A stretch of 64,000 nucleotides of DNA from positions 1 through 64,000 of the forward strand of contig JAFTUK010000055.1 in assembly GCA_017466325.1 (NCBI GenBank), in the 5' to 3' direction. Source of the DNA: Bacteroidaceae bacterium. GTDB lineage: Bacteria; Bacteroidota; Bacteroidia; Bacteroidales; Bacteroidaceae. Shown piece after piece: positions 12,537-57,108 of the stretch. How positions within the stretch are numbered: the first letter of the stretch is position 1; each line of letters starts with the position of its first letter. The notes beneath the pieces are model-generated. The model had not been told where the DNA came from. It saw nothing but the letters and a program-made list of their open reading frames with translations, and ran no database searches. The position numbers and the translations under genes were made by a program.

Positions 12537-14336
12537 ATGCAGAATATCCGTAACATAGCGATAATAGCACACGTAGACCATGGCAAGACCACTCTGGTGG
12601 ACAAGATGCTTTTGGCCGGAAACCTGTTCCGTGATAACCAGCAGTCGGGCGAACTGATGCTGGACAACAACGAGTTGGAGCGCGAGCGTGGCATAACCAT
12701 CCTGTCCAAGAACGTGTCCATCATGTACCGCGACACGAAGATAAACATCATCGACACCCCGGGGCACTCCGACTTCGGAGGCGAGGTGGAGCGTGTGCTG
12801 AACATGGCGGACGGATGCATCCTTCTGGTGGATGCCTTCGAGGGTCCCATGCCACAGACGCGTTTCGTGTTGCAGAAGGCTCTGGAAATAGGTTTGAAAC
12901 CCCTTGTTGTGGTGAACAAGGTGGACAAGCCCAACTGCCGTCCCGAGGAGGTGTACGAAATGGTCTTCGACCTGATGTGCGACCTCAATGCCACGGAAGA
13001 GCAGTTGGACTTCCCCGTCATCTACGGTTCTGCCAAGAACAACTGGATGGGTGAGGACTGGAGCACTCCCACCACGGATATCACATACCTCTTGGACCAG
13101 ATCCTGGAGCATGTGCCTGCCCCCAAGCAGTTGGAGGGTACACCGCAGATGCTCATAACCAGTCTGGACTATTCCAACTATACCGGCCGCATTGCCGTAG
13201 GCCGTGTGCATCGCGGTACCCTGCGAGAGGGCATGAACATCACCATCGTGCACCGCGACGGTAGCAAGGAGCGCACCAAGATCAAGGAGGTGCACACCTT
13301 CACCGGCATGGGACGTAAGAAGACTGCCGAGGCAGGAAGCGGCGACATCTGTGCCCTGGTGGGACTGGAGCGCTTCGAGATAGGCGACACCATTTGCGAC
13401 TACGAGAATCCCGAGGCTCTGCCCAGCATCAGCATAGACGAACCGACGATGTCCATGCTCTTCACCATAAACGACTCTCCTTTCTTCGGCAAGGAAGGCA
13501 AGTTCTGCACCAGCCGCCACATACAGGAACGTCTGGACAAGGAACTGGAGAAGAATCTGGCCCTGCGTGTCTCTACCATGGAGGGTTACACCGACCGTTG
13601 GATTGTGAGCGGACGTGGCGTGCTGCATCTCTCCGTACTGGTGGAGACCATGCGCCGCGAGGGTTATGAATTGCAGGTTGGCCAGCCACAGGTTATCTAC
13701 AAGGAGATTGACGGCGTGAAGTGCGAACCCATCGAGGAACTGACCATAAACGTGCCCGAGGAGTTCAGCAGCAAGATGATAGACATGGTTACGCGCCGCA
13801 AGGGCGAAATGACCAGCATGGACAGTCAGGGCGACCGTGTGAACATAGAGTTCAACATCCCCTCACGCGGTATCATCGGCCTGCGAACCAATGTACTCAC
13901 CGCCTCTCAGGGCGAGGCCATCATGGCGCACCGCTTCAAGGAGTACCAGCCTTTCAAGGGCGAGATAAACCGCCGTACCAACGGTTCGCTGATTGCCCTG
14001 GAGAGCGGCAATGCCTATGCATATGCCATAGACCATCTGCAGGACAGGGGCAAGTTCTTCATAGAACCTCAGGACCAGGTGTATGCCGGCCAGGTTATAG
14101 GAGAGCATGTTCACGACATAGACCTTGTCATCAACGTATGCAAGGCAAAGCAACTGACCAACGTCCGTGCCAGCGGTACTGACGAGAAGGCCCGCATCAT
14201 CCCTGCCACCATCTTCTCCCTGGAGGAGGCCTTGGAGTATATCAAGGCTGACGAATATGTGGAGGTTACCCCCCATTCCATGCGCATGCGCAAGGTGATA
14301 CTGGACCACCTGGAGAGAAAGCGCGCGGGAAGGTAA
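12537..14336 (+). CDS. typA: Translational GTPase TypA/BipA
   Basis: A 599-residue ribosome-associated GTPase of the EF-G superfamily, involved in stress adaptation and late ribosome assembly. The G1 motif AHVDHGKT, the switch region RERGITI, DTPGHSDFGGE and NKVDKP are in the first 130 residues. EF-G-like domains and the BipA-specific C-terminus follow (GEAIMAHRFKEYQPFKGEI). The start at 12537 aligns with family N-termini (MQNIRNIAIIAHVDHG). Length is typical. It is divergent from rpsO. Confidence 0.97.
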   Translation: MQNIRNIAIIAHVDHGKTTLVDKMLLAGNLFRDNQQSGELMLDNNELERERGITILSKNVSIMYRDTKINIIDTPGHSDFGGEVERVLNMADGCILLVDAFEGPMPQTRFVLQKALEIGLKPLVVVNKVDKPNCRPEEVYEMVFDLMCDLNATEEQLDFPVIYGSAKNNWMGEDWSTPTTDITYLLDQILEHVPAPKQLEGTPQMLITSLDYSNYTGRIAVGRVHRGTLREGMNITIVHRDGSKERTKIKEVHTFTGMGRKKTAEAGSGDICALVGLERFEIGDTICDYENPEALPSISIDEPTMSMLFTINDSPFFGKEGKFCTSRHIQERLDKELEKNLALRVSTMEGYTDRWIVSGRGVLHLSVLVETMRREGYELQVGQPQVIYKEIDGVKCEPIEELTINVPEEFSSKMIDMVTRRKGEMTSMDSQGDRVNIEFNIPSRGIIGLRTNVLTASQGEAIMAHRFKEYQPFKGEINRRTNGSLIALESGNAYAYAIDHLQDRGKFFIEPQDQVYAGQVIGEHVHDIDLVINVCKAKQLTNVRASGTDEKARIIPATIFSLEEALEYIKADEYVEVTPHSMRMRKVILDHLERKRAGR

Positions 14337-14391
14337 GGAAAACGGAAAACGGAGAACGGAAAACGGAAAGGTAACATACCCCATCCACTTT

Positions 14392-14412
14392 CCTCCCCTG
14401 AGACAGGGGAGG
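14392..14412. other. Hairpin and CGGAAAA repeats after typA
   Basis: CCTCCCCTG and CAGGGGAGG form a 9-bp stem with a 3-nt loop, but no T tract follows, so termination is doubtful. Just before it (14336-14371) lies a run of GGAAAACGGAAAACGG-like units of the motif dispersed through the window. Confidence 0.4.
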
Positions 14413-14531
14413 TGCCCGCAGGGCAGAGGGGTATGAAAAGCGGGAAACGAAAACGCAACAGCGGAATGACATGCGACGCTGAGCATCCCTGTGTAAGGAT
14501 GATAACGATTGGCGATGAACGAATTTATAAT

Positions 14532-17084
14532 ATGATGAAAAACTACAAGAAATATTTGATTGAAGTAGGCGTGGTGGCATTGTTTGCCATCATCAGCGTG
14601 GCATACTTCTGGGAACCTATCATGGATGGCAAGGTGCTGTCCGGGCACGACCATACCGGAGGCGTAGGTGCAGGTGTGGAGATGAACGAGTACCGTGAGA
14701 AGCACAACGGTGAACGTACCCGTTGGACCAATACGCTCTTTTCCGGCATGCCCACATACCAGATGGCACCGTCCTACGACAGTACCGACTCGCTGGCAGA
14801 GTTGAAGCAGTGGTACAGCCTGTTCCTGCCCACCGTGGCATCCTATGTGTTCATCATGCTGCTGGGCTTTTATATCATGCTCCGCTGCTTTGATTTCAAG
14901 GTGTGGATGGCTGCCTTGGGTGCTGTGTTATGGGCATTCTCCAGTTACTACTTCATCATCATAGCGGCAGGACATATCTGGAAACTATATACCTTGGCTT
15001 TCATACCTCCCACCATAGGTGGTATGGCACTCTGTTATAGAGGCAAGCGCGGTTGGGGCATAGCGGTCAGCGGTCTGTTCATGGCATTGCAGATTGTTTC
15101 CAACCATGTGCAGATGACCTATTACTTCCTGTTGCCCATCTTTGCCCTGTCTATAGGATGGTTGCTCTCCGACCTGAGCCGTGAGGGCATGATGCGCTGG
15201 CTGAAGGGCAGTATCGCCTTTGCCGTTGGTTGCCTGCTGGGCGTGGCCATCAACCTGTCCAATCTTTACCACACATGGGAATACAGCAAGGAGACCATGC
15301 GCGGCAAGACAGAACTGACACATAAGACCAAGGACGCTGCCGACCAGACGTCAAGCGGTCTGGAGCGCAGTTACATTACCGCCTGGAGTTATGGCATAGG
15401 TGAGACATGGACCCTGCTCGTGCCCAACACCAAGGGTGGTGCAAGCATGCCCTTGTCGCAGAGCGAGACGGCCATGTCCAAGGCAGACAGCCAGTACCGC
15501 CCCCTGTACCAGCAGTTGGGACAATATTGGGGCGAGCAGCCCGGCACCAGCGGTCCCGTATATGTGGGCGCCTTCGTGTGCATGCTGTTCGTGCTGTGTC
15601 TGCTCATCGTCCGTGGACCCGTATGCTGGGCCTTACTTCTGGCCACCATGCTTTCCATAGCATTGTCGTGGGGCAAGAACTTCATGGGACTGACCGATTT
15701 CTTCCTGGACTACGTGCCCATGTACGACAAGTTCCGTACAGTGGCATCCATCCTGGTGATAGCGGAGTTCACCATCCCCCTTATGGCCATGATGGCACTG
15801 AAGAGATTTGTGCAAGATCCCTCATGCGTGCACGTGCGCGTGCCTATAATAAATAAGGAGATAAACGCCCTTTGGCTCAGTTTTGCCATAACGGCCGGTA
15901 TATGCCTCCTGTTCTGGCTTGTGCCTGATGCCTTCTTCGGCAATTATGTGTCCACAAGCGAGTACAACGGCATACAGGGACTGGTCAGTGCCGGTTATGT
16001 TGACCAGCAGTTTGTGAACGGTTTGCTGGATAACCTCAGCGAGATGCGCCGTCATGTGTTCTCTGTGGACGCCATGCGTTCCTTCTGGATCATCGTTATC
16101 GGCACAATCCTGATGGTGCTGCATTATTTTGGCAAACTGAAGGCTATTCCCATGACACTGCTCATTATTCTCCTTTGTCTGTGGGATATGTGGTCGGTGA
16201 ACAAGCGTTATCTGAACGATGACATGTTTGTGTACCCACGCCCAGTGGAGCAGAACTTCCAGCGCACCCATGCCGATGAGATGATTCTGCTGGACCCCGA
16301 TATGTATTACCGTACACTGGACATGACCGTAAGCACCTTCAACAGCAACGATGCATCATATTGGCACAAGAGCATCGGCGGTTACCATGCAGCCAAGTTG
16401 CGCCGATATCAGGAGGTAATAGAGTCACACATCAGTCCTGAGATGGTACGCCTGCAGAAGGCTGCGGCCGAAACCGGTGGAGATCTGGCAAAGGTGAATG
16501 GCGACAGCCTCTTCCCTGTGCTGGACATGCTCAACATGAAGTCTGTCATCATGAAGACCAGCGACGGCAACAAGGTGCCCGTGTTCAATCCGCATGCCAT
16601 GGGCAATGCCTGGTCAGTGTCTTCCATACATTGGGTGGACAATGCCGATGACGAACTGGCAGCCATTGGCAAGGATGACCTCCGCCGTGTGGCCGTTGTG
16701 GACAGGAAGTTCCAGGATATGCTGGGCAGTGTGCCTGCCGATGCAGATTCATTCCGTGTCAGTGTGAAGTTGACAAGTTACGAGGCCAACCGCCTTGCCT
16801 ACGAGATAGACTCAGAGAAGGGTGGCGTGCTGGTGTTCTCCGACATATACTATCCCGGATGGACGGCAACAGTGTCGGGTGAGGAAGTCCCCGTGGCACG
16901 TGCCAACTACATCTTGCGTGCCATACAGGTTCCTGCCGGCAAGCACGAGGTGGTCATGACCTTCGACCCGCAAACCGTACACACCACCGAGGCCATAGCC
17001 TATGGTGCACTGGCCTTGCTGGGACTGATAATAGTAGGAAAGATAATAACACTAATATTAAAGAAAAGAAAATGCCAGAAGTAG
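14532..17084 (+). CDS. YfhO-family integral membrane protein
   Basis: About 850 residues, with a first membrane span at residues 8-25, many further hydrophobic segments up to about residue 550, a large soluble extracytoplasmic region (about 560-800), and a last span near 815-840. The pattern and the motif SGHDHTGGVGAGVEMNEYREKHNGE..W fit the YfhO family. Members resemble GT-C-type glycosyltransferases; in Firmicutes YfhO is implicated in decorating lipoteichoic acid. A matching role in surface-glycan modification is inferred. The start was set at the ATG-ATG pair at 14532, because the upstream extension is a basic repeat-derived tract. The gene overlaps the following glycosyltransferase by 13 nt, indicating an operon. 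Confidence 0.85.
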   Translation: MMKNYKKYLIEVGVVALFAIISVAYFWEPIMDGKVLSGHDHTGGVGAGVEMNEYREKHNGERTRWTNTLFSGMPTYQMAPSYDSTDSLAELKQWYSLFLPTVASYVFIMLLGFYIMLRCFDFKVWMAALGAVLWAFSSYYFIIIAAGHIWKLYTLAFIPPTIGGMALCYRGKRGWGIAVSGLFMALQIVSNHVQMTYYFLLPIFALSIGWLLSDLSREGMMRWLKGSIAFAVGCLLGVAINLSNLYHTWEYSKETMRGKTELTHKTKDAADQTSSGLERSYITAWSYGIGETWTLLVPNTKGGASMPLSQSETAMSKADSQYRPLYQQLGQYWGEQPGTSGPVYVGAFVCMLFVLCLLIVRGPVCWALLLATMLSIALSWGKNFMGLTDFFLDYVPMYDKFRTVASILVIAEFTIPLMAMMALKRFVQDPSCVHVRVPIINKEINALWLSFAITAGICLLFWLVPDAFFGNYVSTSEYNGIQGLVSAGYVDQQFVNGLLDNLSEMRRHVFSVDAMRSFWIIVIGTILMVLHYFGKLKAIPMTLLIILLCLWDMWSVNKRYLNDDMFVYPRPVEQNFQRTHADEMILLDPDMYYRTLDMTVSTFNSNDASYWHKSIGGYHAAKLRRYQEVIESHISPEMVRLQKAAAETGGDLAKVNGDSLFPVLDMLNMKSVIMKTSDGNKVPVFNPHAMGNAWSVSSIHWVDNADDELAAIGKDDLRRVAVVDRKFQDMLGSVPADADSFRVSVKLTSYEANRLAYEIDSEKGGVLVFSDIYYPGWTATVSGEEVPVARANYILRAIQVPAGKHEVVMTFDPQTVHTTEAIAYGALALLGLIIVGKIITLILKKRKCQK

Positions 17085-17947
17085 ACCCTGCTTCGCCTGT
17101 GCCTCCGTCGAGCACGAAGACACAGAGCAACACTTTGGATGAGCCTTACCAACCAAAGTTTACTGTAGTTACCGTAACGTACAATGCCGAGCAGACTCTG
17201 GAACGCACGTTGCAGAGTGTTGCGTCCCAGACCTATCCGCACATAGAGCATCTTATAGTCGACGGATTGAGTGGCGACGGTACGCTTGCACTGATACAGG
17301 AGTATGCCGAGGACAACTCGGTGTGTGACCATCCGCACGACATCCAGTTCATACGCGAACCGGACAACGGTCTGTACGATGCCATGAACAAGGCTATCGA
17401 CAATGCCAACGGAGACTATCTGGTCTTCCTGAATGCAGGAGACAAGTTTCACTCGTATGATACGTTGGAAAGGATTGTAGAGGGCGTGACCTCGGTACAC
17501 GGCAAAGAGTTTGATGAGGAGACTTGGCCGGCTGTCCTCTATGGCGAGACCGACATCGTCGACGACAAGGGAGAGTTCCTTCGTCACCGTCGTTTGCAGG
17601 CTCCCGAAGTCCTTTCATGGCGCAGTTTCCTCAGCGGCATGCTGGTGTGCCACCAGAGTTTTTATGTACGAACGGATATGGCACGCAAGTTCCACTACAA
17701 CCTGCGCTACCGTTTCAGCGGCGATTTCGACTGGTGCATACGCATCATGAAAGAAGCACAACAGCAACGTATGCCCCTCTTCAACACACGCCTGATACTT
17801 ACGGACTACCTGGCCGAGGGCATGACAACAAAGAACCATCGCAAGTCACTTTTCGAACGTTTCCGCATCATGTGCCGCCACTACGGATGTCTGGCCGCTA
17901 TCGGACAGCACTTGTGGTTTGTATTGAGACTGGCGGTGAAGAAGTAG
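17072..17947 (+). CDS. Family 2 glycosyltransferase
   Basis: A 291-residue GT-A-fold transferase. The nucleotide-sugar-binding strand FTVVTVTYNAEQTLERTLQSV begins near residue 30, followed by LIVDGLSGDGT and EPDNGLYDAMNKAID, which is characteristic of the WcaA/colanic-acid-like subgroup. The SGDFDWCIRIM segment near residue 220 is a conserved catalytic-base region. No signal peptide; probably membrane-associated at the cytoplasmic face. It starts inside the end of the YfhO-like gene, so the two are likely co-expressed for cell-surface polysaccharide or glycan assembly. The donor and acceptor are unknown. Confidence 0.88.
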   Translation: MPEVDPASPVPPSSTKTQSNTLDEPYQPKFTVVTVTYNAEQTLERTLQSVASQTYPHIEHLIVDGLSGDGTLALIQEYAEDNSVCDHPHDIQFIREPDNGLYDAMNKAIDNANGDYLVFLNAGDKFHSYDTLERIVEGVTSVHGKEFDEETWPAVLYGETDIVDDKGEFLRHRRLQAPEVLSWRSFLSGMLVCHQSFYVRTDMARKFHYNLRYRFSGDFDWCIRIMKEAQQQRMPLFNTRLILTDYLAEGMTTKNHRKSLFERFRIMCRHYGCLAAIGQHLWFVLRLAVKK

Positions 17948-18379
17948 AAGCAAGCAATTTCACAGACATAAACAGAGGCAGGCACGCTGTGTCTGCCTCT
18001 TGTGTGTTTTTACAATCGGTTTCTCCAATACCATACGTTTCCGCCCTACCGAGGACAAAGGCTTGAATATAGTATCTGTTCGCCGAGACAATACCGAGGA
18101 CGGACCTGTGACAATACCGAGGACGATTTCGGGTATACTCAACGGCAGAATTACGCCGCCACTTCAACCGACAAGAGTTATCTATATGTACCCTGGTCTG
18201 CTTTCGTCCGGACATCACTCTGGCATCATGCTTTTTGCCGTTAATTTGTGTCAAAGTCCGAGGGGGGGGTAAAAAGTTTGTTAAAATAATTGTATATTTA
18301 CATGCTGAAACCATGCTTTGCAGGTACATTTCTATCAGCAGACACGATGACTAATTCAAACCTAAACAAAAATATGAAG
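17948..18379. other. Intergenic region with ACCGAGGAC repeats
   Basis: No gene is supported. TACCGAGGAC occurs three times (18047-18056, 18092-18101, 18115-18124), each in a GACAATACCGAGGAC-like context. The same CACCGAGGAC string forms the ends of the palindromic repeat at 11802-11882. An eight-G run lies near 18262. Confidence 0.45.
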
Positions 18380-18549
18380 AAAGTTCTGTTAAGGCCATAT
18401 ACTTCTCGTTCGATGACTATGCAACAGGCATATTTGAAACGGAAAGCGAAAAAGTGGAAACGGAAAACTTCTATGACTTGTCCGGACGCCGTGTGGTGAA
18501 AGCACAGAAGGGTGTCTACATTGTGAACGGCAATAAGGTGCTTAAATGA
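18380..18549 (+). pseudogene. Orphan C-terminal tail of a secreted protein
   Basis: Without a start codon, this frame encodes the end of a protein: a YFSFDDYATGI strand, a Glu/Thr-rich linker (FETESEKVETEN) and the tail FYDLSGRRVVKAQKGVYIVN ending in NKVLK. It parallels the last 60 residues of the metalloprotease at 18745-20841 (YLNFDDDATGI, then YDLSGRRV..KGVYVVNGKKVLK). It is best read as the remnant of a neighbouring paralogue whose body was deleted. The tail resembles short T9SS C-terminal sorting sequences. Confidence 0.7.
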
Positions 18550-18621
18550 CCATTCCGTCCCGATTCGACAAGTTGCACCTTATAATATAATATAGTTAGA
18601 GATACAATATTCCGAGAAATA

Positions 18622-18748
18622 ATGAGCAAAAGGAAATATATAGCACCAGTGTGTGAAAGCCAGGATTGTAATTGCGGTTTGTGTTACTCATGAAGGCCAT
18701 CATGGAGACTGGGGTCAGGACAATGCGATTAAATTATATAGCCTATGA
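18622..18748 (+). pseudogene. Small KYIxPxCE-family gene, frameshifted (copy 1)
   Basis: Starts MSKRKYIAPVCES and stops after 23 codons (TGA 18691-18693). The +1 frame continues HEGHHGDWGQDNAIKLYSL and ends in a TGA that overlaps the metalloprotease ATG. The beginning matches the small gene just after the metalloprotease (MNKKKYIIPICEC after repair). Small proteins starting MKKKYIxP are common in Prevotella and have no assigned role. Decay or a recoding event is possible. Confidence 0.45.
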
Positions 18749-20841
18749 AAAAGAAACTATTAACTGTGGCTCTGGCAGCCACTCTATTGCTACCATCTGC
18801 ATTGCAGGCCGAAGATGCCCTCCCCGGTGACGGAACACTACGTTTCTATCGCCTGGCCATTCCCGTGACGGTAAGTGCATTTGAGGATGACCTTCAGGGT
18901 GATTATAGCCTTTTCGATGATGATTATCAGGACAAGGTGATACCTTTCTGGCAAGCCTGCGAGGATTTCGTCAACGAGGTGTTCGTCCCCCTGGGCATGT
19001 GCTTTGATGTGGTGATGGACAAGCGATTGGTGATGACAGAGCATATCAATGCCCTTGATAAGTCCGATGATCTCCCAGAAATCGGCAACTGCACGAACTA
19101 TATCAACGATGCTATCGGTGAAGGCAGCTACGATGTGGGCATGTGGGTTACCCATCGCAAAAGCTATGCCGAGAACTCTGGTCTCTCTGTCGAGGGCGGT
19201 GCCTATATAAGTGGTGCCAAAGGAAGCGGCTATGCCAAGACCGACAAGTGGGTGGTGGCCCACGAACTTGGCCACATGTTTGGCGCACCGCATACCACCA
19301 CGGGCGAGGGCAGTCTGATGGACTCCGGCGGTGATGACTTCTTTGCCTACCCCTCCATCAAGACTATCCGCAACAGGGCAAAAGGCACCTCATCATACAA
19401 AAATGTCAAGGTGGACAACAATGCCCCCAAATTCAATGCCGAGGCGATGCAGAAGACCTACCGCATTCCCCAAGGCGCCTGCCTTTTTATCGACGTGCAG
19501 GCTACCGATGCCGAAGGACACCGGTTGCTCTACACCGCCATAGGATGCAGCAGTGCCAATGTGGACAACATCAAGGAGGGAGGTTCCATGCCCCACTTCG
19601 CTTCGTTCGTCCCACAGGAAAGCAATGTCATCACCTACCAGCCGACCTACATTGCTGATATTATGTACGATGACTATTTCTACCTGAAGGATGGCACTGA
19701 CGTTCCAAATATGGAACCGGGCAACTATGCACTTAGCATACTTGTCAACGATGTGCCAAGCACAGCATGGAGTTACTCTGAATTGCAGGCAACTCCATTC
19801 TACAGCACCTATGCCATCTGGGAAAGCCAGGTGCAGATTGTCGGGGGTACAGCCTTCAATGCTAAACTCGCTCCTGCCAAGAACCAGTACACGGCAGGCG
19901 AGCAGGTGACTGTATCGTGGGGTGTCAACGAGAACTACTTCACCGCCGACAGCCGTTTGCGCATCAGCCTCTCCACCGACTATGGCAAGACCTTCAAGTA
20001 TGTTCTTGCCGAGGATGTCAAGGCTCTCGATGGCAAATGCGTCGTAAACCTGCCCAAGGTGAATGTCGGGAAGTTGGATGTGGACTTCACTACAGCAACC
20101 CGCCAGATGAACGGCGGCATCATCAAGGTGGAAGAGATAGGTGGCGCAGCCTTCACCCTGACTACCCTTGATCCCAGCAGTAACAGCAGTTTCACCGTAA
20201 CAGGAGGATTTGACGAGAAAGACGTTGCAATCTGCAATATCGGGACCTATGAGATTGGTACTTTCTACGCCAATGCCCCCATGACCATCCCTGCCGGAAT
20301 GACTGCCTATGTGGCTACCAACGCCCCGACTATGAACGGCGATGAGGGAACTATTACCATGACATCCATCACTGACGGCATCATTCCTGCACAAACAGGT
20401 GCTGTAGTCTATGGCAAGCAGGGACAGCATCTCCTCACCAAGGCTACAGCAGGAGGTTCTGCCATAACAGGCAACATGTTGCATGGCTATGCGGGCACGG
20501 ATGAATGTCAGGAGGTGGAAGTCCCCAGTGGTTTTACCACCTATGTCCTGGCCGTGGAAAATGATAGAATTGGATTCTACCGCAAGGATGGCGGTTTCAA
20601 GGTATATAACAACAAGGCATACCTCTGTGTACCTGCGAATGTGGGCAATGCACGTACCCTTTATCTCAACTTTGATGATGACGCCACCGGCATCGTGGAA
20701 ACGGAAAACGAAACCGAAGGTCGACGCCCGGAGGGACTGAAGTCAAAACAGGAAACGGAAATATATGACCTTTCAGGCCGCCGTGTAGAGAAGGCGCATA
20801 AGGGTGTATATGTCGTCAACGGCAAGAAGGTACTGAAGTAG
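18745..20841 (+). CDS. Secreted reprolysin-like zinc metalloprotease with T9SS-type C-terminal tail
   Basis: A 698-residue exported protein: Sec signal peptide (residues 1-22, cleavage after LQA). The catalytic domain has the zinc motif HELGHMFGAPH, with H173, H177, H183 and E174, and a downstream SLMDSGGDD met-turn region, as in M12B/reprolysin-like peptidases. Beta-rich domains follow. A Glu/Thr-rich linker (about 645-672) contains a 47-bp repeat also found at 423-469. The last 25 residues are YDLSGRRV..KGVYVVNGKKVLK, resembling short C-terminal signals of type IX secretion; porX and porW in this window fit that route. Substrate unknown. The gene overlaps the end of a frameshifted small gene. 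Confidence 0.88.
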   Translation: MKKKLLTVALAATLLLPSALQAEDALPGDGTLRFYRLAIPVTVSAFEDDLQGDYSLFDDDYQDKVIPFWQACEDFVNEVFVPLGMCFDVVMDKRLVMTEHINALDKSDDLPEIGNCTNYINDAIGEGSYDVGMWVTHRKSYAENSGLSVEGGAYISGAKGSGYAKTDKWVVAHELGHMFGAPHTTTGEGSLMDSGGDDFFAYPSIKTIRNRAKGTSSYKNVKVDNNAPKFNAEAMQKTYRIPQGACLFIDVQATDAEGHRLLYTAIGCSSANVDNIKEGGSMPHFASFVPQESNVITYQPTYIADIMYDDYFYLKDGTDVPNMEPGNYALSILVNDVPSTAWSYSELQATPFYSTYAIWESQVQIVGGTAFNAKLAPAKNQYTAGEQVTVSWGVNENYFTADSRLRISLSTDYGKTFKYVLAEDVKALDGKCVVNLPKVNVGKLDVDFTTATRQMNGGIIKVEEIGGAAFTLTTLDPSSNSSFTVTGGFDEKDVAICNIGTYEIGTFYANAPMTIPAGMTAYVATNAPTMNGDEGTITMTSITDGIIPAQTGAVVYGKQGQHLLTKATAGGSAITGNMLHGYAGTDECQEVEVPSGFTTYVLAVENDRIGFYRKDGGFKVYNNKAYLCVPANVGNARTLYLNFDDDATGIVETENETEGRRPEGLKSKQETEIYDLSGRRVEKAHKGVYVVNGKKVLK

Positions 20842-49068: not shown

Positions 49069-49101
49069 AGGTAAAAAGCAGTTGAAAACCAAACCTTGCT
49101 T

Positions 49102-49139
49102 ATTGCCGGCAAATAAAATCCAGTTTATTTGCCGGCAAT
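49102..49139 (+). terminator. Hairpin after the GH16 gene
   Basis: A perfect 16-bp stem (ATTGCCGGCAAATAAA and complement) with a 6-nt loop, 34 bp after the stop. It is followed by AATTGTATTTG rather than a clean T run. Confidence 0.7.
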
Positions 49140-49195
49140 AATTGTATTTGTGCTTTTATGAAGTCTTTGCTGGCGCACAATAATATAACATGCAA

Positions 49196-49276
49196 AAAGT
49201 ATAATATGCCGTCAGCGATAAGTATAATAGTCTTACACCTGTAAGTATAGTACTCTTACGCCTGCAAGTATAATAT
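49196..49276. repeat. 23-bp tandem repeat
   Basis: AAGTATAATAGTCTTACACC-type units start at 49220 and 49243, with partial units before (49196) and after (49266). The period is 23-24 bp. Each begins with an AAGTATAAT-like box. Possibly binding sites for a regulator of the following operon. Confidence 0.55.
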
Positions 49277-49966
49277 AGCGTTTTGGGGTAGCATGTGGAG
49301 CATGTGTAATAGGTGTACATAATAAGGTCTTTGAGACGTCTTTTTGTTTTTTATCGGAGAGCATGCAAGTACACTCTGCTCTTATTTAGTTTGTTCTTCC
49401 TGTCAAGAAAAAGGCATAGATTAGATATTTTTCATGTTTTTTGCTTTTATTAATAAATTAATGTGTAAATTTGCCATGCAAAGTGTACTTTTGACAAAGG
49501 AATATCCCTAACCGTCATTTGACATTTGCATCGTCCGAGCACACGCCGAGCCTTTGGTGCGGCAACCCTTCATCAGAGGAGGATGGGTGGGGCAAATGGA
49601 CGAGAACTTATGGAAAGGCGTTTACTTGGCGCTTTGTTCAGGACTCTCTGAAACTTCGCAAACTTTAGATACTGTCTCGAACTTAGCAACGGTAGATGAC
49701 CCGGGTGTGATTTTTACATCCATCAGTGTATTCTGTCAGTACGAATTGTATCTTTACGAGACGTACTGTCACAGATATATGTATGGAATATGTAGGTCAT
49801 ATCGGCGTGGGCTCTAGCGTTGTCTGTTCAACAGTATCGGGCAATGCGAAGGCCTCAGAGAGTGGGACAGACGACAGGCAGTTCCCACGCTTCTTTTTAT
49901 ATGTTCGTTCAGATTATTAACCAATTTAATTCTTCAGTTGGGAACCTGAAGAAATGTATAATAATT

Positions 49967-51025
49967 ATGAACGAAAACAAGTTCTTGAAAATCTTTTGTG
50001 TTCTTGCATTTTTTGCATTTGCTGCCGCCAGTTGCTGGGCAACGGCAGAGTCCTTGCATCTGTTACTATCTACATTGCCTATTGCTATGTGCTGGATTGT
50101 TACCATTGGTTTCTTCTTTATTGCCTCTTGGGGAACCAAAATGATAGTGGATAGTTTCAATCAGAATATCTATTTAGAGAAAAGAGGGTTGCGTTTACTT
50201 GGTGGAATTGTCATCACTCTTATCTTCTGGCTTGCATGCAGTATGCCAACAAATACGCATACATTTTTCTACAGAAGCGTAATCCATGACAAGGTAATAA
50301 GCGACATTTCAACCACAGAGGGTTATCTGGTTCAAATAAAAGACAACACTGTTACTGAAACAAAGATTCAAATCAAATGTGCAGAGTTAAAGAACAAGGT
50401 AGATGTGAAACTTGGCGAGTTGAAGGCCGAGATAGAAAATGACGCAAATCCTGGATTTGGTCCCAAAGCAAAAGAAATTCTTAGAGGATTTGCAGAACTA
50501 CTTGGAGTTGCAAGAATCGAGCCTCTCTCATACAGAGGTACATCTGTCCAGGATCGTCAGAGGCTATATGATTCATATCGAACAAAGATTTACATCCTTC
50601 TTGATAGCCGTTTGATGAGCATCGTCAAAGAAATGACTCCCCCAAATAACAATCATCAGAAGCAAGCAGACAAGGATTATAAAAATTTGGAATTAGTGAA
50701 AACATACATTGAAGACGGAACATTAGATCTTAATGATGCCGATGACATAAGGACAGTATGCGAAAAACTCAATGCTGGTTATGCCACTATACGCACTTAT
50801 CAGCAATTTGTTGATTTCAAGGATGAGACAGACCAAGCAACTTATACTTCGCCCAATGCAGTGACAAAAGTTAAACGTCTGATTAGTGTCTTTGACACCT
50901 GGGCCGATTTCCTAAAAGGCGAGTACAATGGTCATGGATTCTTCTTTTGGGTTCTCATTTCAATCCTTGTAGATGTGGCAGCGTTTATTTTCTTTGATAT
51001 TGCATTCAAAAAACATGAAGACTAA
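49967..51025 (+). CDS. Multi-span membrane protein, first gene of GTPase-protease operon
   Basis: A 352-residue protein. Hydrophobic spans lie at about residues 7-25, 33-54, 76-95 and 325-345. Residues 96-320 between the third and fourth are soluble, helical and charged, probably extracytoplasmic, with a KDNTVTETKIQIKCAELKNKVDVKLGELKAE coiled-coil-like part split by the report limit into adjacent pieces KDNTVTETKIQIK and CAELKNKVDVKLGELKAE. The ATG at 49967 was chosen because the upstream extension lacks coding character and the new start gives a membrane-type N-terminus. No known family is recognised. It lies 29 nt before the GTPase-like gene in the same AT-rich operon; a membrane anchor, channel or effector role is speculative. 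Confidence 0.75.
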   Translation: MNENKFLKIFCVLAFFAFAAASCWATAESLHLLLSTLPIAMCWIVTIGFFFIASWGTKMIVDSFNQNIYLEKRGLRLLGGIVITLIFWLACSMPTNTHTFFYRSVIHDKVISDISTTEGYLVQIKDNTVTETKIQIKCAELKNKVDVKLGELKAEIENDANPGFGPKAKEILRGFAELLGVARIEPLSYRGTSVQDRQRLYDSYRTKIYILLDSRLMSIVKEMTPPNNNHQKQADKDYKNLELVKTYIEDGTLDLNDADDIRTVCEKLNAGYATIRTYQQFVDFKDETDQATYTSPNAVTKVKRLISVFDTWADFLKGEYNGHGFFFWVLISILVDVAAFIFFDIAFKKHED

Positions 51026-51054
51026 GAATATTAACCCTTTAACTTTATAAAACA

Positions 51055-52011
51055 ATGCCAGTAACAAACAATTCCAATCCAATACCAGAGGCAGAAGTAG
51101 CTCCTATTGTTGCAGAAAACGAAGTTCCTGTTGTAGAGCATCTAAATACAGAACCTATCGCTCATGCCGAAACTCCTGTACAATCAGAAGGTGTACTTCA
51201 TGGTTTGAGTTCTGCAGAACTAAATGACCCTAATAGTATAAGAGTTACCATTTCTGACCATAATGCGCCGCTAGTCATCCTTTTCGGCCCCCCAGCATGC
51301 GGCAAGACGATGACATTGGTAAGAATGACCCGTTTCCTGCAAGCAGAAGGTTATACGGTGTCTCCTATCCGTACATTCCGCCCTACATCAGATACAAATT
51401 ATGTGGACATCTGCGAGCACTTCGATGAAAGAATGAATAGTGACAATGCAGCAGCCTCAACTGACCGTATCAGTTTTATGCTCGTAGAGGTCATAAAGAA
51501 TGGACGTAGAATCTGTCAAATTCTTGAAGCCCCTGGTGAGTATTATTTTAATCCCAAGAAACCAAACGCACAGTTCCCGAACTATGTAAATACCATTATT
51601 TCAAGTCAAAACCGCAAGGTTTGGACAATTATGGTCGAACCTGACTGGATGGATCAAACCGACAGAGCCAACTATGTCAGCAAAATAAGTCGTTTAAAAC
51701 AACAAATGAGACCCAAGGACAGTGCAGTTTTTGTTTTTAATAAAATTGACAAAACAAACTTTGTGCATACCGTTGGCAATATCAATACTTCAGAAGCAAT
51801 CAAAGAAGTGAAGAATTTGTATCCAAGTATCTTCGTTCCTTTTATGAATCAGAATCCTATAAGCAAACTATGGAAGGAATACAACTGCGATTTTGTTCCT
51901 TTCCAAACAGGTTTCTACACGGAAGCTGTAAATGGAATTACTTATCAAGAAGGACCTCGCGAATATTGTGTCAAATTGTGGAAGTGTATCCTGAATAAAA
52001 TCACTGGTTAA
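51055..52011 (+). CDS. P-loop GTPase-like protein
   Basis: A 318-residue soluble protein. After a variable acidic, Pro-rich N-terminus (1-55), a nucleotide-binding domain begins: Walker A GPPACGKT at 78-85, a switch-like RTFRPTSDTNYV segment near 106-117, an LEAPGEY at the place of the DxxG motif with Glu in place of Asp, and NKID at 229-232 as the guanine-specificity motif. This fits a TRAFAC-like GTPase, reminiscent of the GTPases in bacterial conflict systems described by Aravind and colleagues; the assignment is by motif only. It stands 6 nt before the coiled-coil partner gene. Confidence 0.75.
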   Translation: MPVTNNSNPIPEAEVAPIVAENEVPVVEHLNTEPIAHAETPVQSEGVLHGLSSAELNDPNSIRVTISDHNAPLVILFGPPACGKTMTLVRMTRFLQAEGYTVSPIRTFRPTSDTNYVDICEHFDERMNSDNAAASTDRISFMLVEVIKNGRRICQILEAPGEYYFNPKKPNAQFPNYVNTIISSQNRKVWTIMVEPDWMDQTDRANYVSKISRLKQQMRPKDSAVFVFNKIDKTNFVHTVGNINTSEAIKEVKNLYPSIFVPFMNQNPISKLWKEYNCDFVPFQTGFYTEAVNGITYQEGPREYCVKLWKCILNKITG

Positions 52012-52016
52012 ATCAT

Positions 52017-53576
52017 ATGGCGTACAGTATCAAACTATTCGTCCATGGTGTCCCAAATGGTCAAGACATTTGGGGCAACCCTGGTGAAGATGCAAAGTAT
52101 ATAGAGGCGTTCTATGGGCGCAAGTCAAATGTGCCTTCGCAAATGTTTCTGGAGGTAATGCAATTTGGTGGCGAAACCAACGCTTACTATACTTACTTTT
52201 ATTATCATGATAAAATACAAGACAGCACAAACCGTACAGGTGGATATTTTGCTTTAACCTTGCGAATAAACTATTATTATGCAGACATTCAGAATATCTA
52301 TAATTTGCTTGAAGCTGCTTTCAATAAGTTTGTTATAGGTAGCGTTATGGAATATACTGCAGGAGGAGGATGCCGTTTCATGATACCACACTTCATTCAG
52401 GCCAATGATACTTTCAAGGCTCTTGAGAAGGAGTTACAGCATTACCTTATGCAATTCTCGAGTAACAAGGATTTTATATCATTGGGTGCTTTTAAAAGCA
52501 ATGGACAAAATGATTTTAGTACAATCAATTTGTTAGAGGCAATACCAAATGTTGTGGCAAACCATGTGAAGTCAACAGGGAAGATTTCTGTTTCATCATT
52601 TCATCCAAATTCTAAAGAACAACAGATCATAAACAAGATGAATGCTGAAATGCAGAATGTAACCTTAAATGCACAACAACAAATTGTTGCTGCCCAGCAA
52701 AAGGCCAAGCAAGACATTCTTTCTGCCCAAAGAGATAAAGAAATGAGTATTCAGAGTGTCAAGAATGAGTACAAAGATGCTGATAAAACTATCAGCCAGT
52801 TACGTGCTCAGAATGACAAAGTCTCCAAGGAGATAGGCAGATTAAGCGCCCAAATCAATGAGTTGAATGTAAAATTGCAAAACGCCCAAGTCTATAAGTC
52901 TCGTTACGAAGAAAATGAAAGGAAGTTAGAAAAAACAGAGAAGTTAATTGCAGACATCAAGAAAAATCTTTCTGGATTGAGTGGCATCTCAGAAATGCTT
53001 GGCATTTCTTCTGCCAATTCTGATGACAAACAAAAAAACTTACTTTCTGTGATTAAGAAAATTCATCCCTTTACCGATTTTTTCGTAATGATGGTACTTC
53101 TCGGAATCATAGGAGTAACTCTCCCAAAAAGTTGCAATAGCAAAGATTCGCCTAAAACCAACTTACTCGCTTCCGCTGATGTCACGGAAATATGTACGCA
53201 TGGAGCAACAATGCAGGCAGAAGATTCTGTTGAAAAAGGTGCACCTGAAGCTGTCACCACTTCCCAAGAAACATATGCTGTACAATCTGCGGTTATACAA
53301 ACTGCAGAATCGTTCCGTTTAAAGTACCCTAATGCAAGAATTGATGTAACCAATATTAATGAGGGAAACGGCAAATATATGCAAGTTAGCTCTGGAGATA
53401 ACTATGAACTTTCTATTAAAAATGTATCAGAGGAACTACATGGTAAATGGGAATGTGACACAAATGCGCTGATAATTCGTGACAACTATATCATTCCCAA
53501 GTCCCAAGGTACTCACAAAATCACCTATAATGTAAATGGAGAAATATATCTATCTAAAACGATTACTGTCAAATAA
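52017..53576 (+). CDS. Single-span signalling-like protein with N-terminal GTPase-associated-type domain
   Basis: A 519-residue protein in four parts. Residues 1-190 form a globular cytoplasmic domain (KLFVHGVPNGQDIWG, then TGGYFALTLRINYYY). It recalls GTPase-associated GAP1-N domains from memory. Residues about 200-318 form a long coiled coil rich in Gln, Lys and Glu. One membrane span lies at 352-371. Residues 372-519 are exported and end in beta strands resembling an Ig-like domain. The topology joins a cytoplasmic sensor or GTPase partner to a periplasmic domain. It follows the GTPase-like gene by 6 nt. Confidence 0.7.
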   Translation: MAYSIKLFVHGVPNGQDIWGNPGEDAKYIEAFYGRKSNVPSQMFLEVMQFGGETNAYYTYFYYHDKIQDSTNRTGGYFALTLRINYYYADIQNIYNLLEAAFNKFVIGSVMEYTAGGGCRFMIPHFIQANDTFKALEKELQHYLMQFSSNKDFISLGAFKSNGQNDFSTINLLEAIPNVVANHVKSTGKISVSSFHPNSKEQQIINKMNAEMQNVTLNAQQQIVAAQQKAKQDILSAQRDKEMSIQSVKNEYKDADKTISQLRAQNDKVSKEIGRLSAQINELNVKLQNAQVYKSRYEENERKLEKTEKLIADIKKNLSGLSGISEMLGISSANSDDKQKNLLSVIKKIHPFTDFFVMMVLLGIIGVTLPKSCNSKDSPKTNLLASADVTEICTHGATMQAEDSVEKGAPEAVTTSQETYAVQSAVIQTAESFRLKYPNARIDVTNINEGNGKYMQVSSGDNYELSIKNVSEELHGKWECDTNALIIRDNYIIPKSQGTHKITYNVNGEIYLSKTITVK

Positions 53577-53577
53577 A

Positions 53578-54126
53578 ATGAAGTTTAAGTATTTCATAAT
53601 ATTTCTCACAGGCATTATGTTTGTAGCATGTGATGCTAAAAAAGAACGGCCAGCCTTCTATGACAATGGAGATGGTGCGGAGGTTTATAACAATGAAGTT
53701 AGCGCAGATTATGGGCAGATGACCGAGGCGGATGTTATATCCATACCATTTTCAGAGAGGAATGGCGTAAAGTACGTGAATGTATCTGTGAATGGATTTG
53801 GATTTGAAATGATATTTGATACCGGCTGCTCTGGAACTCTGATTTCTGTGGCAGAAGCGAACTACCTCTACAAAAAGGGATACCTTACCAAAGATGACAT
53901 ACTCGGTATTGGGCAATCACAGATAGCCGACGGCAGTATTGTTGAAAACATGGTTATAAATTTGAAGGAGGTTGTACTTGATGGCAAAATACGCTGCAGT
54001 AACGTAACGGCAACTGTATCCGCCAATAATAATGCACCCCTTCTTCTAGGTAATGAAGTCCTTGACCGAGTTGCGGCATATGCTGTTGACAATATGAACC
54101 AAACCATTAATTTTAAGTTGAAATAG
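53578..54126 (+). CDS. Retropepsin-like aspartic protease lipoprotein
   Basis: A 182-residue lipoprotein: the signal peptide ends in a VAC lipobox (Cys18). The catalytic motif FDTGCSGTLIS puts Asp81-Thr82-Gly83 in the DTG of clan AA peptidases, and the second hydrophobic-hydrophobic-Gly element is PLLLGNEVLDR (about 154-164). Single-domain retropepsin-like enzymes work as dimers. It should lie in the periplasm, on the same side as the exported parts of the neighbouring membrane proteins, so it may cut one of them on signal. The start lies 1 nt after the preceding stop. Confidence 0.82.
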   Translation: MKFKYFIIFLTGIMFVACDAKKERPAFYDNGDGAEVYNNEVSADYGQMTEADVISIPFSERNGVKYVNVSVNGFGFEMIFDTGCSGTLISVAEANYLYKKGYLTKDDILGIGQSQIADGSIVENMVINLKEVVLDGKIRCSNVTATVSANNNAPLLLGNEVLDRVAAYAVDNMNQTINFKLK

Positions 54127-54129
54127 ACC

Positions 54130-55341
54130 ATGAATGCATCGGTATATATTTTTGGAGAATTCAATAGTGGTTACTCGCAGTATCCTGACGACTATTCCTC
54201 TAATATTTTCCAGACATTCTCTTCCAATGCAAAATCAACCACACAGATTGCCATCCATCGTGATGGCAATCTTGTATACTATGGATACATTCGAAAACTT
54301 CAACAGAACTGCTATATAGGTCTGTGTGTAGTGTTGAACGGTTTGGCTATTGAGAGAATTGACAGACTCTTTCCTCTATTTGAAAATACAATTTCATACC
54401 TTGTAACCAATGGTAAGTTAGTTCATTTCAATGAACAAGGCGAACTAGTTAGTAATGTGGAGAAATTATATTTAAACAGAGAGGAGATAGAACTTCTTAC
54501 AGAATCGCTCAGGGCAGGATTCAATGGATTAGAACAGTATTGTGTACCACTTCCGCCTGTTAGTTATGGAACGTCAAAAGATTCAAAAAAGGACTTCATT
54601 GTTGATGATGAACCAAATGAAATATTCAAGTCAACCCATACCAACGGATACACCTACATCTATAAATCCAAGGGATTCAATACTGCACAACTTAATAGTT
54701 ACAAAGGTATACTGAGTAAGTCGTATAAAGAAAAGCAAGAACTACAAGCGAAACTGGATGCTCTGGAAAAAGAACACGCACAAACACTCAGGCAAAAGAA
54801 ACAATATAAATTTGTTTTAATTCTGTTTGTAGTACTTCTGGGGTGTGCCGTAGGTCTATTCTCCCTTAACGATAATTTGAACCTTACACGTCATGCTCTT
54901 TCAAATGCAAAAGACACAATAAGCATGCAGAATGACTCTCTGAATGCCAGGAGCAGGAAAATTTCAGATCTATGCCTTAGGAATGATAAGCTCAATACGC
55001 TATACCTGACAGAGATCAAGAAAAGAACAGACGTAGAAAAAAAGTATGAAGGATTACAGAAAATAGTAACAGGACGTCAACCGTTCATTATCAAGAAGAC
55101 TTCTTTCAAATTCGCGACAGGATACCTTACCATTGAATATTATGGTTTAACTGAAGGAAGTGTCGATATTCAGGTGAAAGCATACAGGTCAGGAGAAGCA
55201 TACAGCAATACGGCTTCCATTTATGTATATAAGGGTGATAATACTGCAACCGTTTATCTTAGTAGCAGACTTAATGGTAGCGAATGGTATTCTTTTGAGG
55301 TTCTTCAAGGGAATGTGATTATAGGTGGTAGCAGGCACTAA
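54130..55341 (+). CDS. Second single-span protein with cytoplasmic N-terminal domain and exported beta domain
   Basis: A 403-residue protein. Residues 1-140 form a domain starting VYIFGEFNSGYSQYPDDYSS, with the IHRDGNLVYYGYIRKL and YIGLCVVLNGLAIERIDRLF segments; I recall this N-terminus recurring in other uncharacterised Bacteroidales proteins. A coiled coil follows (about 185-222), then a span at 226-246, a second coiled coil (250-310) and a C-terminal beta domain (320-403). The plan mirrors the protein at 52017. It lies 3 nt after the protease gene and is the last gene of the operon. Confidence 0.7.
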   Translation: MNASVYIFGEFNSGYSQYPDDYSSNIFQTFSSNAKSTTQIAIHRDGNLVYYGYIRKLQQNCYIGLCVVLNGLAIERIDRLFPLFENTISYLVTNGKLVHFNEQGELVSNVEKLYLNREEIELLTESLRAGFNGLEQYCVPLPPVSYGTSKDSKKDFIVDDEPNEIFKSTHTNGYTYIYKSKGFNTAQLNSYKGILSKSYKEKQELQAKLDALEKEHAQTLRQKKQYKFVLILFVVLLGCAVGLFSLNDNLNLTRHALSNAKDTISMQNDSLNARSRKISDLCLRNDKLNTLYLTEIKKRTDVEKKYEGLQKIVTGRQPFIIKKTSFKFATGYLTIEYYGLTEGSVDIQVKAYRSGEAYSNTASIYVYKGDNTATVYLSSRLNGSEWYSFEVLQGNVIIGGSRH

Positions 55342-55473
55342 AAACTATTCCAGAAGATGTGCTTATTGCAAATGAAAACACATTGTTAGGTAGAAAAACG
55401 CTGATTTATGATGATGTCTTTCGGTGCCGAGCAAATCTTCCCCAATGCACTTGGATGTATTGGGGATTTATTG

Positions 55474-55481
55474 TATATTTG
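55474..55481 (+). promoter_or_regulatory. -7 element before the AAA-ATPase/nuclease gene
   Basis: TATATTTG, 30 nt before the chosen start at 55512. It shows that this gene has its own promoter and is probably not part of the five-gene operon. Confidence 0.6.
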
Positions 55482-55511
55482 CATGGTGAATTGAATAAAA
55501 AGGTGGCAGGT

Positions 55512-57053
55512 ATGAAGTATCCTATAGGTATACAGCATTTCTCAGAGTTGAGGACCAATGGGTGGGTGTATGTAGACAAGACGGCGGTCATCTACCGTTT
55601 GTTGTCAAGCGGCAAGTACTACTTTCTGAGTCGTCCCCGCCGTTTCGGCAAGAGTTTGCTGATATCTACCCTCGAGGCTTATTTCAAGGGACAAAAGGAC
55701 TTGTTCCAGGGACTTGCCATGGAGCAGTTGGAGACAGAGTGGGTGGAGCATCCCGTGTTGCATCTTGACCTGAATGCCAAACCTTTCACCAAGTTACAGG
55801 ACCTTTACGCCTTGCTTAATGACCAAATTACAATCTACGAACATCAATACGGAAGTGTTGCTGTAGATGAAAGTCCAGAGGGGCGCTTGCGCCAACTGAT
55901 CCGTGCCGCCAAGGAGAAGACGGGGCGCAACGTAGTGGTGCTGGTGGACGAGTACGACAAGCCTTTGCTTCAGGCCATAGGCAACGAGGATTTGCAGAAC
56001 GAGTTCCGCAGCGCTTTGAAGGCCTTTTATGGCGTTCTGAAAAGTGCGGATGCCGACATACGTTTCGCTCTGTTGACGGGTGTTAGCAAGTTCAGTAAGG
56101 TCAGCGTCTTCAGCGACCTTAACAATATAGAGGATATATCCATGAGTCCGCACTACTATGATATTTGCGGCATATCAGAGCGTGAGTTGCACGATACGTT
56201 TGACAACGAAGTAGGGGAATTGGCTTCCGTAAACGATCAAACCAAGAAAGAGGCTTATGAAACCCTGCGCCAACGCTACGACGGATACCATTTCAGCCCT
56301 GACACTCCCGGTATGTATAATCCCTTCAGCATACTGCTTGCATTGAAGAATCAGGAATATGGCAGTTACTGGTTCAGCACGGGCACACCAACCTACCTTG
56401 TGCAGTTAATGAAGGAATTTGACCTTAATCCCAAGGAACTGTCGGGCTATGAGGCAAGTGCCAACGAACTGGACAGCGTGCAGATAAAGGTGGACAATCC
56501 CATTGCCGTGCTCTATCAGAGCGGCTACCTGACCATAAAGGGGTATGACAAGCGTTTCAAGACATACACGCTGGATTATCCGAATGATGAGGTGAAGGAG
56601 GGATTCGTGAACTTCCTCTTGCCGTACTATACCTATTCGCGGCAGATAAATAATGCATCCATTATCGGTCAGTTTGTTCAAAGTCTGGAGCGCGGCAACT
56701 CCAACCGCTTTATGGAACTGCTCCAGGCATTTATGGCCGACATCCCATATGAACTTGTCAGGGACTTGGAGGTGCATTACCAGAATGTAATATATATCAT
56801 CACCAAGTTGATGGGGCTCTATGTGCAGGCAGAATACCGCACCTCACGCGGCCGCATTGACTTGCTCGTAGGCACCGACAAGTACGTCTACATTATAGAA
56901 CTGAAGCACGATGGCACCGCCGAGGAAGCCCTTGCGCAGATCAACTCCAGGGACTATGCCTTGCCATTCGCCACAGACGGCAGGGAAGTGGTGAAGATTG
57001 GTGCCAATATCACCAGCGAGACGCGCAATTTGGAACGCTGGGTGGTGGAGTAA
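55512..57053 (+). CDS. AAA-ATPase-like protein with C-terminal PD-(D/E)xK nuclease domain
   Basis: A 513-residue protein of a large paralogous Bacteroidales family. It begins YPIGIQHFSELRTNGWVYVD, has a shortened P-loop RPRRFGKSLL (41-50) and Walker B VVLVDEYDKPLL (near 145). The C-terminal domain carries RGRIDLLVGTDKYVYIIELK, where D and E-x-K match a PD-(D/E)xK nuclease. The family (AAA-ATPase_like plus PDDEXK_9) is abundant but of unknown function; mobile-element or defence roles have been suggested. The start was set at 55512 because it lies just behind a TATATTTG element. Base composition is GC-richer than the operon before it. Confidence 0.9.
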   Translation: MKYPIGIQHFSELRTNGWVYVDKTAVIYRLLSSGKYYFLSRPRRFGKSLLISTLEAYFKGQKDLFQGLAMEQLETEWVEHPVLHLDLNAKPFTKLQDLYALLNDQITIYEHQYGSVAVDESPEGRLRQLIRAAKEKTGRNVVVLVDEYDKPLLQAIGNEDLQNEFRSALKAFYGVLKSADADIRFALLTGVSKFSKVSVFSDLNNIEDISMSPHYYDICGISERELHDTFDNEVGELASVNDQTKKEAYETLRQRYDGYHFSPDTPGMYNPFSILLALKNQEYGSYWFSTGTPTYLVQLMKEFDLNPKELSGYEASANELDSVQIKVDNPIAVLYQSGYLTIKGYDKRFKTYTLDYPNDEVKEGFVNFLLPYYTYSRQINNASIIGQFVQSLERGNSNRFMELLQAFMADIPYELVRDLEVHYQNVIYIITKLMGLYVQAEYRTSRGRIDLLVGTDKYVYIIELKHDGTAEEALAQINSRDYALPFATDGREVVKIGANITSETRNLERWVVE

Positions 57054-57108
57054 AAAGGTGAGCGGTGAACGGTTTACGGTGAGCGGATAGGGTTCGTTCA
57101 CCGTTTGC

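Follow-up and report, generated by a model that had tools for sequence, protein, structure and literature searches.

The window analysed here, a stretch of 64,000 nucleotides (nt) from a Bacteroidaceae bacterium (contig JAFTUK010000055.1, positions 1 to 64,000 of the forward strand), harbors an operon of five open reading frames (ORFs), denoted A to E, on the + strand, spaced by 29, 5, 1, and 3 nt. This operon is a real, accessory, membrane-spanning GTPase-longin module, in which a retropepsin-like protease is usual but dispensable. The Bacteroidales gene set, consisting of a GTPase, two longin-like membrane proteins, and exported proteins, is apparently undescribed. The genes and their parts, including transmembrane (TM) segments and immunoglobulin (Ig)-like domains, are listed below with their basis (AF2, AlphaFold2).

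49967..51025, + strand: gene A, 352-residue membrane protein with four membrane helices (ORF, AF2 model)
50246-50263, + strand: conserved PTNTHT motif of A (alignment)
51055..52011, + strand: gene B, soluble GTPase related to DO-GTPases (motifs, profile comparison)
51286-51309, + strand: G1 motif of B, GPPACGKT (sequence)
51523-51540, + strand: G3 motif of B, LEAPGE (sequence)
51739-51750, + strand: G4 motif of B, NKID (sequence)
52017..53576, + strand: gene C, with predicted longin-like, coiled-coil, TM, and Ig-like parts (AF2 model, VIA-align)
52017-52463, + strand: predicted longin-like domain of C, residues 1-149 (AF2 model, VIA-align)
52611-52964, + strand: predicted coiled coil of C, residues 199-316 (AF2 model)
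53079-53123, + strand: TM segment of C, residues 355-369 (TM position)
53304-53573, + strand: predicted periplasmic Ig/Big_2-like domain of C, residues 430-519 (AF2 model)
53578..54126, + strand: gene D, lipoprotein, retropepsin-like aspartic protease (PF13975 above cut-off); an alternative longer ORF starts at 53536
53629-53631, + strand: lipobox cysteine of D (sequence)
53818-53826, + strand: DTG motif of D (sequence)
54130..55341, + strand: gene E, single-span paralogue of C (hhalign, C versus E)
54811-54861, + strand: TM segment of E, residues 228-244, the C-terminal part being periplasmic (TM position)

The operon is AT-rich, with a G+C fraction of 0.383 versus 0.584 in the gene of a glycoside hydrolase of family 16 (GH16) on its left, 0.568 in cysS, and 0.499 in the window. 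An earlier note on this DNA had described this composition, the five same-strand genes with their spacing, a four-span membrane protein, a P-loop protein, a lipoprotein with a DTG retropepsin motif, and two kindred proteins, the first built of a globular N-terminal domain, a coiled coil, one span, and a beta domain; recomputed positions, profiles, and models bear out all of these traits. Its statement that housekeeping genes bound the operon holds only in part, because the direct neighbors are the GH16 gene (PF00722) and, on the right, a gene for an AAA-ATPase-like/PD-(D/E)XK protein, beyond which cysS is located.

According to the available part of Kaur et al. (2020; PMC7159879), DO-GTPases possess a Walker B glutamate, are accompanied by GAP1 as downstream partner, and are combined with variable effectors. 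The GTPase encoded by gene B shows the xxGE-type Walker B glutamate of this class together with family-level similarity across G1 to G4: when its profile is aligned with one built from four DO-GTPases, the match spans 160 columns, G1 through G4 (hhalign 91.4%, E=9e-7). These four sequences come from two loci, L144, which additionally encodes a GAP1-N1 protein, and L145, with a GAP1-like N-terminus that aligns with the GAP1-N1 profile (97%). Four other P-loop proteins, compared as single sequences, reached E-values of 4.6e-4 to 0.07 over 12-49 columns of the P-loop region alone. Among relatives of B, LE[AGS]PGE is kept in 81/87 and NKxD in 78/87. A GTPase of Portibacter lacus (L146), left out of the four-sequence profile, bridges B and the DO-GTPases: its PF19993 score is 33.2 bits against a cut-off of 27, and the B model detects it at E=1.2e-7. 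A small membrane protein and a subtilase are encoded upstream of it, and the N-terminus of a single-span protein encoded 3' of it aligns with C/E at E=0.0013 (probability 18%). Two observations weigh against this kinship and against a shared partner: DO-GTPases compared singly with B gave E-values of 9.3e-6 to 0.006, partly overlapping those of the other P-loop proteins, and the single-span protein of L146 is absent among the C/E-model hits listed. The case therefore rests on the profile, the single-sequence scores being weaker and partly overlapping. B itself matches neither Pfam DO-GTPase family (PF19993/PF19975) at E<=1, and PF19993 was found in 0/21 genomes, the window's own included. The B family is large though patchy, with 1,142 proteins at E<=0.001 after clustering at 90% identity, and a second GTPase copy occurs on occasion (L046, L055, L064, L071, L079). 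L146 is in itself a larger related system, comprising a PF10139 (Virul_Fac) protein, a membrane subtilase, the small membrane protein, the DO-GTPase with an N-terminal extension, the single-span C-like protein, and then proteins that look exported.

The N-terminal domain of C is predicted to adopt a longin fold. In a VIA-align comparison of residues 1-149 of the model, the five best rows were Lst4 (9.6), FLCN-FNIP2 complexes (9.4, 9.4, and 8.9), and VAMP7 (9.0), all of which are longin domains or proteins known to contain them; sequence identity across the longin rows is 4-12%. The periplasmic end of C is likewise modeled as Ig-like. Their N-terminal profiles mark C and E as paralogues of one another (hhalign probability 99.2, E=5.6e-20), and E is predicted, by homology alone, to be longin-like as well. 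No Pfam match of C/E to GAP1-N was obtained; the joint C/E profile aligns with the GAP1-N1 profile in a plausible register at E=0.022 (C alone 0.55, E alone 0.045), compared with 0.11-0.56 for unrelated pairs. The pairing of a GTPase with a GAP1-like partner, as claimed in the earlier note, thus stands for the GTPase, which is related to DO-GTPases, and lacks a Pfam match on the side of the partner.

The product of gene A comprises four membrane-length helices in a confident AF2 model (predicted local distance difference test score, pLDDT, 90.8), with a large helical domain (~residues 96-320) that is predicted to lie in the periplasm. N96 and H98 are invariant in 64 aligned sequences. Strong matches to A occur in the same 4/295 genomes of the order as those to B, adjoining B, and three more genomes hold marginal A matches; for B, four more genomes contain marginal P-loop matches, as does genome G273 in the form of a second match.

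When species genomes were scanned using an alignment of B, at least 79 loci emerged; the counts for these 79 refer to the scan of genome contigs alone, with profiles run on six-frame translations. The B query patterns favor loci keeping PPxCGKTM or CQILExPGE, so that remote versions of the operon are under-sampled. A further set of 90 loci contains overlaps (L010/L137, L026/L138, L070/L140, probably also L069/L003 and L081/L004). By title, nearly all of the 79 loci belong to Bacteroidales or Bacteroidota, and many of the hosts come from guts; L087 is a Dyadobacter. Short contigs titled as metagenome-assembled genomes of Bacilli, Clostridia(les), Roseburia, Lachnospiraceae, or Opitutales (L043, L044, L047, L048, L062, L073) are probably mis-binned Bacteroidales. 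The order A-B-C-(x)-D-E recurs across the 79 loci while the flanks vary, and because it recurs, the operon is not a chance assembly; the expected co-location of homologues is thereby confirmed. A adjoins B in 73/74 testable loci and a C/E protein follows in 73/74, so the A-B-C linkage is near-obligate. Where at least 5 kb are available after B (61 loci), two or more C/E proteins are encoded in 54 loci, one in 7, and none in 0.

The favored reading, at a probability of about 0.45, is that the four core genes A, B, C, and E encode a G-protein switch whose signal crosses the inner membrane to reach exported outputs, for example D. C and E would form a longin heterodimer that determines, at the membrane, which nucleotide state B is in; A would be the fixed membrane partner, serving as scaffold or sensor. 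From B, this state would be relayed via the coiled coil and the TM segment of C/E to the periplasm, where the output would be D or, elsewhere, another secreted protein, e.g. a subtilase-like one. The output might be brought about by D cutting a flexible periplasmic linker of C; that a GTPase signal reaches the protease is what we infer. The output is placed in the envelope because the recurring accessory families described below appear, as read from sequence, exported or membrane-bound, and the inside-to-outside direction follows from this trait together with the cytoplasmic location of the constant GTPase and longin parts. Periplasmic processing of a comparable kind is exemplified by PerP and PodJ of Caulobacter, where a DTG protease also faces a coiled-coil single-span protein; unlike here, no GTPase takes part, and the cleavage in our case is putative.

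The operon is patchily distributed and subject to exchange at one chromosomal site. In a genus survey, 8/139 genomes encoded B; one of them is the window's, and the B proteins of the remaining seven are 36-86% identical to its B. Synteny with the sister genome G501 (left flank ~97% DNA identity) ends at 49068 and restarts at 57068, an unrelated stretch of ~7.8 kb occupying the operon site in G501; in G298, a congener, the same flanks enclose only ~40 nt and thus an empty site, and the divergent operon of that genome sits elsewhere (L142). This exchange site between the GH16 gene and cysS corresponds to window 49069-57067, L134 7479-15282, and L136 15463-15502. The flanks of the most similar operon (L010, 79% DNA identity) are unlike those of the window, and no recombinase gene was seen among the ORFs of the window's 8-kb non-syntenic stretch. 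On an IMG/VR contig (L089), which has the appearance of a mobile locus or of a specificity locus of type I restriction-modification, the operon is located directly 3' of a phage-integrase-family gene, with recombinase-like genes and HsdS-like fragments recognized by reading. Genes adjoining the operon mostly belong to one-off ordinary families (best 25 of 118 matched families).

The constant core is accompanied by variable effector-like genes (subtilase-like, BACON, ZorAB-like, and secreted coiled-coil). In the 90 loci, some of them overlapping, accessory profiles detected BACON-group proteins in 10, a secreted coiled-coil protein in 13, and another secreted protein in 5; in L031, L033, and L042, the BACON domain was verified with Pfam, and in L028 it lies slightly below cut-off. 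A ZorA/ZorB-like (MotA/MotB) pair is contiguous with the operon in L018 (13375-15682), L037 (4435-6722), and L023 (2-1213), with ZorA2 at 5.8e-9 for L018 and ZorB1 at 1.8e-12 to 1.1e-9 across these loci; the MotA-like protein of L037, in the order E-MotA-MotB-A-B-C-D, matched no ZorA model. Within the Zorya system (available part of PMC11890865), ZorA/ZorB belong to the system itself; here, such motor genes stand outside the operon of the window and occur in 3 of the 79 searched loci, the Zor models match none of the five window genes at E<=1, and the examination of these loci for ZorC/D/E covered ten proteins.

It is conceivable, though doubtful, that the operon defends against phages or acts in conflicts between bacteria, in the style of DO-GTPase/GAP1 systems: an infection or attack is sensed, the switch fires, and an exported protease or envelope effector harms or protects the cell. 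The combination of a constant core with variable accessory genes, as in the DO-GTPase systems (PMC7159879, available part), the patchy, divergent, and exchangeable nature of the operon, the ZorA/ZorB-like genes, and the integrase-associated IMG/VR copy speak for it. The core, however, contains no recognized nuclease, NADase, or pore effector, and searches of 50,697 phage and 72,556 plasmid records gave no match to B. At E<=1e-20, PADLOC matches were sparse both near the operon (117 proteins, 38 families, at most four members among the best 25 families) and far from it (65 proteins, 13 families), so that the conflict-system context claimed earlier finds no clear enrichment of defense models in the nearest versus distant genes. 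The core genes match no model of PADLOC-DB 2023 beyond the coiled-coil or P-loop level at E<=1, the best among the five genes being LmuB (5.4e-6, on the coiled coil of C). The defense reading is based on analogy, on patchiness, and on the ZorAB-like genes.

The region preceding gene A and that following gene E contain further features.

49486..49493, + strand: TACTTTTG, -7 box-like element (sequence; resembles TAnnTTTG)
49569..49903, + strand: structured non-coding leader, terminator-like hairpin at its end (GCGTGGG..CCCACGC plus T-run; conservation, RNA folds)
55509..57053, + strand: AAA-ATPase-like/PD-(D/E)XK_9 protein, right neighbor of the operon (PF09820 5.2e-70, PF08011 4e-21)

The 530 nt preceding A are conserved yet non-coding, with stops in all three forward frames. 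TAnnTTTG is the Bacteroidetes -7 box consensus; no -33 box was seen at proper spacing from TACTTTTG. With a z-score of -6.9, the leader of the window folds much more stably than its shuffles, and the same holds for 27/27 loci folded (z from -2.9 to -10.9, with 15 shuffles per locus). RNAalifold on a 21-sequence alignment predicts 22 pairs in the 3' part, 8 of them with compensatory changes; single-sequence folds pair the two halves of the leader, a long-range pairing that RNAalifold lacks. No Rfam family reaches its gathering score. In the 79 loci, 29 leader matches were found, 28 of them upstream of A on the same strand; this search is biased toward such copies because the profile was built from them. 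Among these 28, 25 are located at most 334 nt from A with no gene of at least 100 residues between, and three (L046, L058, L088) have one gene between. That gene encodes a NusG domain (PF02357, cut-off 22.2) in L058 (39.9 bits) and L088 (30.4 bits), and the L046 gene clusters with both. NusG paralogues such as UpxY mediate antitermination at Bacteroides polysaccharide operons. The leader probably serves processive antitermination by a NusG paralogue, by analogy, and may represent an antitermination leader family without Rfam entry because of the NusG-domain gene in these three loci. With UpxY/LoaP-type leaders it shares the structure, the terminator-like hairpin, and that gene, although the regulator is placed beside the leader in only 3/28 cases. 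The window's genome contains at least six more copies, five on other contigs (L155-L159) and a partial one at window 8546-8659.

A rather unlikely alternative is a regulator of envelope stress or surface assembly, whose switch senses the envelope state and controls the processing of surface proteins, with BACON, subtilase-like, and ZorAB-like proteins as clients. The exported or membrane-bound appearance of the recurring accessory families agrees with this, as do the service of NusG-paralogue leaders at surface polysaccharide operons and the observation that three of the five other full leader copies in the window's genome (L156, L157, L158) precede genes that look exported. A DO-GTPase gene is also found in psp operons, and a role in membrane-related stresses has been predicted for its family (PMC11237479, available part). 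Against this, the patchiness (8/139) would be unusual for a stress regulator, and the flanks vary between loci.

Gene D scores 39.3 bits on the Pfam family gag-asp_proteas (PF13975, cut-off 28.2). It is present in 47/61 loci, directly 3' of a C gene or one gene later, and the catalytic motif, which the earlier note expected to persist in relatives, is retained as DTG or DSG in 57/58 D proteins (DTG 53, DSG 4, DTA 1). Prevalence, position, and motif together argue against a view that we consider improbable, namely that D is an unrelated passenger serving another role, the system being A-B-C-E alone. In favor of that view, D is absent from 14/61 loci, several of which consist simply of A-B-C-E, with no other protease taking its place within that run of genes; therefore the protease cannot be the obligatory output that had been proposed. 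Two D-less loci carry clustered subtilase-like lipoproteins: that of L086 scores just over cut-off on Peptidase_S8 (22.7 versus 21.8 bits), and that of L059, with only a fervidolysin-type prodomain, is subtilase-like by this prodomain and by clustering. Near the operons of L023 (9927-11993) and L022 (14160-16202), proteins are encoded that combine tetratricopeptide repeats with a D-related retropepsin domain at the C-terminus (Pfam checked for L023). A sub-assembly of a type VI- or type IX-like secretion machine, with A and B resembling a split TssM and C/E resembling TagF, is very unlikely, as TagF rows rank below the longin rows and near background, and no secretion genes were recognized in the listed gene orders, no dedicated search having been made.

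The transmembrane G-protein switch can be compared with several known systems. With DO-GTPase/GAP1 systems (PF19993, PF19975, PF20012, PF20013), it shares a related GTPase, a partner gene directly downstream, a link to the membrane, the constant core with variable accessory genes, and the occasional second GTPase copy; it differs in a GTPase below Pfam detection, in the absence of detectable GAP1-N, GASH, and FNIII domains (GASH and FNIII-repeat: no Pfam match at E<=1 in the five window genes), and in its partners, which are two longin-like single-span proteins and a four-TM protein. The five-gene set is not among the systems described in the available part of PMC7159879, the main text of which lacks the word "retropepsin". 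Longin and roadblock domains are related (PMC3521125, available part), and the bacterial Ras-like GTPase MglA likewise shares an operon with a small regulatory-fold partner, the roadblock GTPase-activating protein MglB; the partners here, in contrast, are membrane proteins, and B, compared by Pfam, has no Ras/Arf-type match at E<=1 except a weak one to G-alpha (0.0049). Unlike the eukaryotic longin GTPase regulators FLCN-FNIP/Lst4-Lst7, Fuzzy-Inturned, and DENN, the present proteins are bacterial and single-span, with a predicted periplasmic Ig-like end. A bolder and quite tentative proposal, on which we would not bet, regards the operon as the Bacteroidales transmembrane counterpart of these regulators and as a new branch of conflict systems, with a longin heterodimer acting on a DO-GTPase-type switch and unleashing a periplasmic retropepsin or exported effector; by extension, GAP1-N would be a longin domain. 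If true, longin-domain GTPase control, which characterizes membrane traffic and lysosomal signaling in eukaryotes, would also be bacterial, membrane-spanning, and linked to proteolysis outside the cytoplasm, and the DO-GTPase/GAP1 class would gain a testable biochemical logic, in which a longin partner sets the nucleotide state, as well as a tractable commensal model.

Within the inserted stretch of the window, the AAA-ATPase-like/PD-(D/E)XK_9 gene is probably a passenger. At the left edge of this stretch, directly 3' of the GH16 gene, a perfect inverted repeat of 18 nt with a 6-nt loop is located (49100-49141). In L037, the opposite strand near the operon (14137-18790) carries a ClpB-like gene and an E1-like gene, the latter matching PADLOC E1-E2 models (best 1.6e-32); the two possibly form a ubiquitin-like defense locus.

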